From the NCBI GenBank assembly GCA_020724525.1, contig DYGU01000015.1, positions 1 through 34,245 of the forward strand: 34,245 nucleotides of DNA. The letters are read 5' to 3'. Source of the stretch: Dehalococcoides mccartyi. GTDB taxonomy: Bacteria; Chloroflexota; Dehalococcoidia; GIF9; DYGU01. Made by a program: the position numbers and the translations under genes. A model generated the notes under the pieces. The model was not told the origin of the DNA and searched no databases. It saw only the letters and a list, made by a program, of their open reading frames with translations. This document shows positions 2,142 through 33,703 of the stretch, one piece after another. Position 1 is the stretch's first letter; each line of letters begins with the position of its first letter.

Positions 2142-3188
2142 ATGATAGAGTTAGATGGTTCAGCCAAATCAGGCAGTGGCACTCTCCTTCGCCACGCGGT
2201 GAGTCTGGCGACTATGCTTGGCGAGGAGCTTCATATGTGGAATATTCGGGCTAAGCGGGAAAAGCCGGGCTTGCGACCACAGCACTACCAAGCAGTCTTA
2301 GCCTGTCAGGATATGTGTCAGGCAACAGTAACCGGAGCTGAGGTGGGCTCTATGGAGATAAGGTATAAACCAGGCAAAATAATAAAGGGAGGCTCCTATA
2401 ATTGGGATATCGGTACCGGTGGCTCAACAACCATGTTAGCCATGACTCTGTTGCCTTTAGCCTGTTTTGCTCCAGAAGCAACCACACTCCGCATTGTCGG
2501 CGGGCTTTTTCAAGACTTCGCCCCTTCGGCTTATCATATACAGCATGTTCTTTTACCGACTTTAGCCAAGATGGGAATTCAAGCTGAGGTGGCAATTGAA
2601 CGACCGGGCTACGCTGAACTTGGAGGTGGCATTATTCGGGTGAAGGTAGAGCCGGTCAAAGTTAAAATTAAGCCCCTGCAACCCCTTAAGGCGGGGGAAA
2701 TCAAGGAAATAAGAGGTATTGCCTTGGCTTCTCATCTCAAACAAGCTAAGGTTAGCGACCGAATGGCGCAGGAATGTGCCCGCCGGTTAAGAAACCAGGG
2801 TTATCAGGTCCGGATAGAAGCTATTTATGATGACACAGCTCTTCACGCAGGTGCCGCTCTGGCAATCTGGGCAGAAGCTGGAAATTGCCGCTTCGGTTTT
2901 GACCAAGCCGGCAGAAAAGGGAGACGAGCTGAAAGCATTGGCAACTATGTAGCCAGCAATTTCCTTCAGGATATAAGAGCTAAGGCAACAGTGGATAGAT
3001 ACTTAGCCGACCAGTTAATAATTTATGGCGCTTTAGCTGACGGCATAACGGAATATATCATACCTTCCCTTACGGAGCATGTGGAAGCTAACTTGTGGCT
3101 GGTGGAGCATATCCTGGGCAAATTTGGGGCTGTTGCCGAATTAACCGGAAATCGCCTGAAGATAAAAGGCATTGGCTATACCCGCTAA
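2142..3188 (+). CDS. rtcA: RNA 3'-terminal phosphate cyclase (RtcA), divergent motif I
   Basis: A 348-residue protein of RtcA length. RtcA converts RNA 3'-phosphates to 2',3'-cyclic phosphates through an adenylated histidine. Visible family features are the opening IELDGS, the conserved REKPGLRPQHYQA at about residues 40-52, the GTGGSTTMLAMTLLPLA segment, GGLFQDFAPSAYHIQHVLLP, and ADQLIIYGALADG. The motif SLTEHVEANLWLVE contains the expected catalytic His at residue 313. The oddity is motif I: the usual GEGGGQ is replaced by KSGSGT, so a metal/RNA-contact glutamate appears absent. It starts 48 bp from the divergent FAU-1 gene, and no strong ribosome binding site is visible. The family call is secure; catalytic competence is less so. 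Confidence 0.85.
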   Translation: MIELDGSAKSGSGTLLRHAVSLATMLGEELHMWNIRAKREKPGLRPQHYQAVLACQDMCQATVTGAEVGSMEIRYKPGKIIKGGSYNWDIGTGGSTTMLAMTLLPLACFAPEATTLRIVGGLFQDFAPSAYHIQHVLLPTLAKMGIQAEVAIERPGYAELGGGIIRVKVEPVKVKIKPLQPLKAGEIKEIRGIALASHLKQAKVSDRMAQECARRLRNQGYQVRIEAIYDDTALHAGAALAIWAEAGNCRFGFDQAGRKGRRAESIGNYVASNFLQDIRAKATVDRYLADQLIIYGALADGITEYIIPSLTEHVEANLWLVEHILGKFGAVAELTGNRLKIKGIGYTR

Positions 3189-12371: not shown

Positions 12372-13721
12372 ATGCGAAAAATTTCAAGGACGATATCAGG
12401 AGTAACCCCGGTAGCCGTAATGGTGGCACCCCGAGGTTGCCCTGGGGAATGTGTGTATTGTCCTACCTACCCCGGAGCCCCTCAGAGCTATACAACAGAA
12501 TCACCGGTAGTACTCCGGGCTCACTCATTTAACTACGACCCCAGAAAGCAGGTTGAAAGCCGGCTCAAGATGCTCTCACAAATGGGACACCCTACCGATA
12601 AAGTGGAACTTATCATTATGGGAGGCACCTTTTTAGCTTATCCCAAAGACTACCAGTACCATTTCATAAAAGAATGTTACGATGCTTTAAACGACTGCCC
12701 CAGCTCAAGCCTGAAACAAGCCAAAAAACTCAATGAGAAAGCGGGACACCGCTGTGTTGGTTTGTGCATTGAGACCAGACCGGACTGGTGTGGAGAGACA
12801 GAGATAGAGAGGATGTTAGACTTTGGCACTACTCGGGTCGAGCTGGGAGTACAGACACTGGACAACAATATTTACTGTCTGGTGAGGCGGGGACACACTA
12901 TAGATGAGGTGATTAAAGCTACTTGCTCCCTCAAAGACCGGGGGCTCAAGGTCTATTATCACTGGATGCCCGGCTTGCCCGGCTCCACCCTCGAGCATGA
13001 CCTGGAATTGTCGCGACAGCTCTTTGACGATGAAAGGTTCAGACCGGATGGTCTCAAATTGTATCCAACTTTGGTCATAACCGGTACTGAACTGGAAAGG
13101 TGGTATCAAAACCAGCGCTACCAGCCTTACTCTGACGAGGAGATGGTAGAGCTGATAATAAGAATTAAAACTCTTATCCCCAGCTATGTCCGGATCTCCC
13201 GGGTGATGCGAGACATTCCGAGTAAGTTTATCGTTGCTGGTTTAAAGGACTCCTCCCTGAGAGACACCGTCAAAAGGAGAATGAAAGAGCTGGGACTAAG
13301 CTGCCGCTGCACCCGCTGCCGGGAATATGGACATCGCTATCGGGATGGCTGGAAAATAGGCACACCTACTCTAAAAAGACTTGACTATGAAGCGTCTGGA
13401 GGCAAAGAAATATTTCTATCTTTTGAGGATGACACCGAAACTATCTTTGGTTTGCTACGATTAAGGGTCAACCCTGTAAATGGCTCGACCTTCGTCCGGG
13501 AGTTGCATGTTTTTGGACCTGAGGTGCCCGTGGGAGAAATACGCCCAGAAGCAGCTCAACATAAGGGACTGGGGGGAAGACTCCTTGAAGAAGCTGAAGG
13601 GATTGCCCGGAAAGAATTTCAGTCACGACGGGTAAAAGTGTTGAGTGGTATCGGGGCTCGAAATTACTTCCGGGAATGGGGATACCGGTTAGACGGTGTC
13701 TATATGGTGAAAGACTTATAG
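12372..13721 (+). CDS. elp3: Elp3 radical SAM/GNAT tRNA uridine-34 carboxymethylase
   Basis: A 449-residue bacterial Elp3. Elp3 uses a 4Fe-4S cluster, SAM and acetyl-CoA to build 5-carboxymethyl-uridine at tRNA wobble position 34. The radical SAM cysteines are C23, C27 and C30 in RGCPGECVYCPTYPGAPQSY. Family motifs include IIMGGTFLAYP, CVGLCIETRPDWC, TTRVELGVQTLDN and YHWMPGLPGSTLEHD, followed by RVMRDIPSKFIVAG. Cysteines in SCRCTRCREYG fit the zinc site, and the C-terminal GNAT domain has QHKGLGGRLLEEAE. The radical SAM domain begins almost at the N-terminus, so the extension common in archaea and eukaryotes is absent. The LOG gene follows after 21 bp, and a Trm9-like gene diverges upstream. 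Confidence 0.95.
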   Translation: MRKISRTISGVTPVAVMVAPRGCPGECVYCPTYPGAPQSYTTESPVVLRAHSFNYDPRKQVESRLKMLSQMGHPTDKVELIIMGGTFLAYPKDYQYHFIKECYDALNDCPSSSLKQAKKLNEKAGHRCVGLCIETRPDWCGETEIERMLDFGTTRVELGVQTLDNNIYCLVRRGHTIDEVIKATCSLKDRGLKVYYHWMPGLPGSTLEHDLELSRQLFDDERFRPDGLKLYPTLVITGTELERWYQNQRYQPYSDEEMVELIIRIKTLIPSYVRISRVMRDIPSKFIVAGLKDSSLRDTVKRRMKELGLSCRCTRCREYGHRYRDGWKIGTPTLKRLDYEASGGKEIFLSFEDDTETIFGLLRLRVNPVNGSTFVRELHVFGPEVPVGEIRPEAAQHKGLGGRLLEEAEGIARKEFQSRRVKVLSGIGARNYFREWGYRLDGVYMVKDL

Positions 13722-33282: not shown

Positions 33283-33384
33283 TTTGGTATTGCCTCAGCC
33301 AGGGATTCCTTCCAGGCACCGAGACTTTATTGTTACTTACTTTAGACAAATTCGCAAGGAGCTGTGGGAGACAAAAAGACAAAA

Positions 33385-33457
33385 TGGGCGATAGTGGATT
33401 TGAACCACTGACCTCCTGTGTGTAAAACAGACGCTCTAACCTCTGAGCTAATCGCCC
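33385..33457 (-). tRNA. tRNA-Val (anticodon UAC)
   Basis: It folds as a full cloverleaf: acceptor GGGCGAT/ATCGCCC, D stem GCTC/GAGC, anticodon loop TTTACAC with TAC, and T arm AGTGG-TTCAAAT-CCACT. Discriminator is A. CCA is not encoded. It is the last gene of the tRNA cluster. Confidence 0.95.
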
Positions 33458-33462
33458 AGGTA

Positions 33463-33538
33463 TGGCGCGCCTGGCGGGATTTGAACCCACGACCTTAGCC
33501 TCCGCAGGGCTACGCTCTATCCGCTGAGCTACAGGCGC
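33463..33538 (-). tRNA. tRNA-Arg (anticodon GCG), CCA encoded
   Basis: Acceptor GCGCCTG/CAGGCGC, D stem GCTC/GAGC, anticodon stem TAGCC/GGCTA, loop CTGCGGA giving anticodon GCG, and T arm GTGGG-TTCAAAT-CCCGC. Discriminator G is followed by encoded CCA. The loop differs by one base from the common bacterial Arg(CCG) loop CTCCGGA. Bacteria normally read CGU/CGC with Arg(ACG), edited to inosine, so GCG is unusual. Confidence 0.9.
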
Positions 33539-33543
33539 CTATT

Positions 33544-33629
33544 TGGTGCCGAAGGGGGGATTTGAACCCCCATGTCCTTATGGACACTACGCCCTGAACG
33601 TAGCGCGTCTGCCTTTCCGCCACTTCGGC
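33544..33629 (-). tRNA. tRNA-Leu (anticodon CAG), CCA encoded
   Basis: A class II tRNA with acceptor GCCGAAG/CTTCGGC, anticodon stem CTACG/CGTAG, loop TTCAGGG with CAG, a long variable arm (TGTCC/GGACA), and T arm GGGGG-TTCAAAT-CCCCC. Discriminator A and CCA are encoded. Confidence 0.95.
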
Positions 33630-33630
33630 G

Positions 33631-33703
33631 TGGGCGGTACTGGACTTGAACCAATGACCTCTTGCGTGTGAAGCAAGCGCTCTCACCACTGAGCTAACCG
33701 CCC
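33631..33703 (-). tRNA. tRNA-Val (anticodon CAC)
   Basis: Acceptor GGGCGGT/ACCGCCC, D stem GCTC/GAGC, anticodon stem CTTGC/GCAAG, loop TTCACAC with CAC, and T arm ATTGG-TTCAAGT-CCAGT with one G-T pair. CCA is not encoded, and only one base separates its discriminator from the 5' end of tRNA-Leu. It is the first gene of the cluster. Confidence 0.95.

Follow-up and report, generated by a model that had tools for sequence, protein, structure and literature searches.

A tRNA-Arg with anticodon GCG, probably in place of the inosine system, in a Chloroflexota genome

The window, i. e. the whole stretch of 34,245 nucleotides analysed here, is contig C20 of a draft assembly of 1.34 Mb (25 contigs, 98.29% complete) and carries an intact tRNA-Arg gene with the anticodon GCG. 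Very probably this gene encodes the normal arginine tRNA for CGU and CGC, inherited vertically in a lineage of Chloroflexota that does without inosine. What was observed directly is the gene content of the source genome, in which neither Arg(ACG) nor TadA was found, the conservation of Arg(GCG) in the class, and the co-occurrence of Arg(ACG) and TadA in a sample of the phylum. Most sampled members of the class share Arg(GCG), which makes it a trait of the lineage, of a kind already described, and not a freak mutation.

Results

The tRNA-Arg(GCG) gene

At 33463-33538 on the minus strand, ARAGORN called a tRNA-Arg with the anticodon gcg (33503-33505). It belongs to a series of four consecutive tRNA genes on the minus strand at the right end of the window: tRNA-Val(TAC) (33384-33458), Arg(GCG), tRNA-Leu(CAG) (33544-33629) and tRNA-Val(CAC) (33630-33703), the three neighbours being identified by both ARAGORN and Rfam. 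The Arg(GCG) gene matched Rfam RF00005 with 70.2 bits (E 1.5e-13) compared to a gathering score of 29, which excludes a match by chance. In the sequence itself, the acceptor stem has 7 bp, all of them paired, the anticodon loop is CUGCGGA with GCG at 33505-33503, and the CCA end is encoded (33465-33463). The RNAfold structure (-33.3 kcal/mol, z -2.07) is a cloverleaf with one additional pair within the anticodon loop; 6 of 200 shuffles folded equally well or better. The elements that confer arginine identity, established in E. coli, are A20, C35 and a purine discriminator. All of them are present in Arg(GCG), as A20 in the D-loop, C35 and the discriminator G73, and the tRNA is presumably expressed and charged with arginine. 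The intact cloverleaf with encoded CCA and anticodon GCG, described in an earlier note on this DNA, is hence confirmed as real by ARAGORN, Rfam and sequence reading.

Elsewhere in the window, two open reading frames named by eye resemble an RNA 3'-terminal phosphate cyclase (2142-3188) and an Elp3-type tRNA modification enzyme (12372-13721).

Arg tRNAs, TadA and codon use in the source genome

In the source genome 46 tRNA genes were found, 45 by Rfam (with the anticodons read by ARAGORN) and Thr(GGT) by pattern search. The latter (L190:1484-1559), missing from the list of 45 Rfam matches, is called as a tRNA by ARAGORN; its apparent absence was an Rfam miss. Because of this gap in the Rfam list, pattern searches were needed as a second test for Arg(ACG). 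The strict Arg(ACG) pattern had no match in the source genome, and a relaxed pattern permitting G34 or A34 matched the GCG gene only. None of the 46 genes found in this draft assembly by Rfam, ARAGORN and pattern search has A34. According to ARAGORN, the Arg tRNAs are GCG, TCG, CCG, TCT and CCT. Arg(TCG) is located at L045 and Arg(CCG) at L041, so that U34 and C34 genes for CGA and CGG are present, and every four-codon box of the genome has G34, U34 and C34 genes.

The TadA model NF008113 found a single match in the draft assembly, with 34.1 bits far below the cut-off of 150. This protein of 370 aa was rejected as TadA, being RibD (TIGR00326, 367.6 bits), and it was also the only protein in the source genome to match the wider deaminase family PF00383. 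TadA thus seems to be missing from the source genome, and the canonical Arg(ICG) system, defined here as Arg(ACG) together with a TadA bearing the HAE motif, was not found, which in an assembly of 25 contigs is no proof of absence. The earlier note had called for a search for Arg(ACG), Arg(CCG) and tadA and had expected CGN decoding to differ from that of most bacteria. Arg(CCG) was found, the other two were not, and the expectation is supported, with the difference being a trait of the lineage.

Codon usage was counted in 22 selected ORFs of the window (8209 codons including stops). With CGU 43, CGC 82, CGA 71, CGG 113, AGA 89 and AGG 79, all CGN codons occur, and therefore the CGN box is in full use. 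Nothing in the source genome suggests a changed codon meaning.

Survey of the class and the phylum

The phylum sample comprised 301 genomes, 38 of them from the window's class. Arg(GCG) was present in 34 of these 38; it is not a peculiarity of one genome. Arg(ACG) was found in none of the 38 with strict and relaxed patterns, and four (G122, G249, G270, G298) showed neither GCG nor ACG by the probes used. The best score of the TadA model in the class was 66.2 bits; among the matches listed the frames had 369-636 aa, and two genomes had no match at all. In a second class sample, which overlaps the first, the relaxed pattern matched 148 of 197 genomes. All listed rows in which tRNA stems could be recognised by eye had G34 (removed by eye: G345, both reverse rows of G318, G364:C19, G390:C28, G307:C118, G334:C318, G321:C9).

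In the phylum sample of 301 genomes, the strict G34 pattern had matches in 129 and its A34 twin in 25. With the relaxed pattern, G000 and 79 of the 147 genomes without a strict match were searched; 46 of these 80 matched, 43 once rows without tRNA stems were removed by eye (G104, G005:C1:313515, G123, G252:C22, G161). Twelve genomes were probed with BLAST and ARAGORN, the latter on 27 of 30 loci, and a still looser pattern was run on 14 genomes, from which only rows with stems visible by eye were kept (ACG: G136, G091:C125; GCG: G072:C23, G112:C1:562473). Altogether GCG was found in 171 genomes, ACG in 33 and both in one (G192). The anticodon was thereby resolved in 203 of the 301 genomes and not in the other 98; 66 of the latter were probed solely with the two strict patterns.

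ACG and TadA go together across this sample. A strong TadA match was found in 31 of 33 ACG genomes versus 0 of 170 genomes with GCG only, with the line for "strong" drawn at about 124 bits upward after the scores were known and with the catalytically dead TadAs described below not counted; these overlap the line (up to 125.2 bits, G040), and it was the HAE/HAV motif rather than the score that separated them. The two ACG genomes without a strong match are G171 (89% complete) and G294 (94%). Fisher's test for anticodon versus strong TadA gave 1.4e-34, which measures association and not a number of events since the genomes are related. In G075, Arg(GCG) adjoins Arg(TCG) (L116:1183-1352) and no strong TadA match was found; G250 from the same genus has a TadA match of 145.8 bits, with its own CGY-reading Arg tRNA not resolved. 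A switch of CGY decoding within this genus is possible.

These data bear on the question of whether Arg(ACG) and tadA could be hidden in assembly gaps of the source genome, with GCG being an extra gene. An assembly in 25 contigs at 98.29% completeness has room for such a gap, and G192 (family f75) demonstrates that the two tRNAs can stand in tandem in a genome with a live-looking TadA. However, none of the 38 class genomes, several of which are single contigs, yielded ACG or a TadA-model score above 66.2 bits. We thus regard hidden genes as very improbable.

Origin of the gene and conservation of the cluster

A scan with a G34-loop pattern located Arg(GCG) in ten stretches, which belong to nine MAGs with Chloroflexi, Chloroflexota, Dehalococcoidia or Dehalococcoidaceae in their titles; as the pattern specified GCG, this shows where the gene is located and not how frequent it is, and the window's own genome was possibly excluded. 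By these titles the window's class would be Dehalococcoidia. ARAGORN called Arg(GCG) in all ten stretches, within similar tRNA clusters: Leu(CAG) adjoins it in nine and Val(TAC) is near in eight, and the complete four-gene order of the window recurs in two (L101, L102). The Arg(GCG) gene of the window is identical to those of the ten stretches in 67-71 of 77 aligned columns. To Arg(TCG) and Arg(CCG) of its own genome it is identical in 59 of 77 and 59 of 76 columns, respectively.

The scheme of G34, U34 and C34 is archaeal in style, and the gene could in principle have been acquired from an archaeon. Yet it resides in a tRNA cluster common to other Chloroflexota, it is near to their genes in a comparison among Chloroflexota sequences, and the G34 type is widespread across the phylum sample. 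Archaeal acquisition is thus very improbable. The anticodon switch proposed in the earlier note, i. e. a recent change of C34 to G34 in Arg(CCG), would require only a single letter, as would a sequencing error at this position. Both are rejected as next to impossible given the separate and divergent Arg(CCG) in the same genome, the closeness to the ten named stretches, and G34 in the independent assemblies of 34 of 38 class genomes.

A catalytically dead TadA clade and a tandem of Arg(ACG) and Arg(GCG)

Two families of the phylum sample, f29 and f41 (26 genomes), deserve separate treatment. In 25 of the 26 the TadA model scored 73-125 bits, and all 25 have Arg(GCG). The other genome, G131 (f41), had neither a listed TadA-like match nor GCG; Arg(CCG) was the sole Arg tRNA found. 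In all 25 TadAs read (L109-L114, L117-L119, L120-L135) the HAE motif is replaced, by HAV in 23 and by HAI in two, i. e. the catalytic glutamate is changed to valine or isoleucine. The PCxMC zinc motif is kept. In the live TadAs of other families HAE was present in 22 of 22 read; this reading covers 22 of 37 strong matches, leaving out 14 and L140 (G119), in which neither the motif search nor a repeated inspection recovered the TadA. A further difference lies at the C-terminus, where the FFxxLR-like end of two live TadAs aligned alongside is missing from the dead ones.

In the tree the dead TadAs form a single clade (support 100/100), next to the live TadA of G136 (f64; 92/88). Of 12 pairs printed, the four close ones had a dN/dS of 0.05-0.13, which suggests that the dead TadAs evolve under constraint; the values of the eight distant pairs (0.46-1.07 at a dN of 0.29-0.51) were distrusted as saturated. 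Arg(ACG) was not found in the 25 genomes with strict and relaxed patterns (one row, G099:C11, removed by eye). Dead TadA and Arg(GCG) share a contig in 21 of these genomes, at a distance of 1.0-19.8 kb. Ser(CGA) was near TadA in 8 of 9 dead and in 3 of 4 live stretches scanned, and thus the nearness of dead TadA and tRNA may simply reflect old gene order.

As they appear to be under constraint, the dead TadAs have probably been retained for some role that does not involve deamination. A parallel is yeast ADAT3, for which PMC7713142 describes loss of the same glutamate to valine with the zinc site kept, just as in the dead TadAs with Val and an intact zinc motif.

In G192, the tandem of Arg(ACG) and Arg(GCG) is located at L115:896-1049, and the genome also has a TadA with HAE. 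The two genes are identical in 52 of 76 columns and thus are not recent copies of each other. A possible interpretation, to which we give about even chances, is that Chloroflexota preserve steps in the dismantling of the inosine system: the tandem with a live-looking TadA in G192, GCG only with a dead, ADAT3-like TadA in f29 and f41, and GCG only with no TadA found in the window's class.

Discussion

Decoding of the CGN box

By the wobble rules, G34 recognises C by standard pairing and U by wobble. In the source genome CGU and CGC are presumably read by G34, CGA by U34 and CGG by C34 or U34. That is, Arg(GCG) would read CGC and CGU, Arg(TCG) would read CGA and probably CGG too, and Arg(CCG) would read CGG. 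By this, the whole CGN box would be decoded without inosine, and no codon would change its meaning. The same scheme of G34, U34 and C34 could serve the remaining four-codon boxes as well, as it does in archaea. As no A34 tRNA that could be edited was found in it, the source genome would have no need of TadA.

One class and 171 of 301 sampled genomes of the phylum, more than half, hereby join the bacteria with a G34 Arg tRNA. Chloroflexota offer a natural test bed for the gain and loss of a nearly universal bacterial tRNA edit, and the clade of dead TadAs is a bacterial pseudo-deaminase approachable by experiment.

Comparison with known systems

The canonical bacterial Arg(ICG)/TadA system serves the same codon box and amino acid. 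In the window's genome, in contrast, neither an A34 Arg tRNA nor TadA was found, and a U34 tRNA for CGA is present. In Mollicutes without TadA, A34 or U34 reads the CGN box; the window's genome, unlike these, uses G34. The likeness to these Mollicutes (PMC3711424) is a CGN box without inosine. According to PMC10454642, Bacillus subtilis can dispense with TadA, which indicates that its loss is survivable.

The closest likeness is found in other bacteria with G34. The earlier note had held GCG to be atypical for bacteria and typical of archaea. It is true that most bacteria differ, but the anticodon is known from Thermotogae, Spirochaetes and CPR bacteria (PMC8007984, PMC8629427). According to PMC8007984, Arg(GCG) replaces Arg(ACG) in all sequenced Thermotogae and Spirochaetes, and the presence of ACG tracks that of tadA. 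The likeness is a G34 Arg tRNA in place of the A34/I34 one, in a different phylum; Chloroflexi are in the sample of that study and, in the sections available, are not named as an exception. We found no statement on Chloroflexota and Arg(GCG) in the literature searched, and Rafels-Ybern 2019 or a 2018 survey of bacterial tRNA modifications may already cover this phylum; the former is cited by PMC8629427 for deep-branching bacteria without inosine. For CPR bacteria, the genetic-code screen in PMC8629427 reports that ACG is absent and that GCG, UCG and CCG are used, i. e. the same scheme of three tRNAs for CGN as in the window's genome. Some CPR members reassign CGA or CGG; the window's genome, in contrast, is a 1.34-Mb Chloroflexota genome in which no reassignment is indicated. 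Inosine-free decoding with Arg(GCG) is already known from these groups, and Chloroflexota are, as far as our searches reach, an addition to them.
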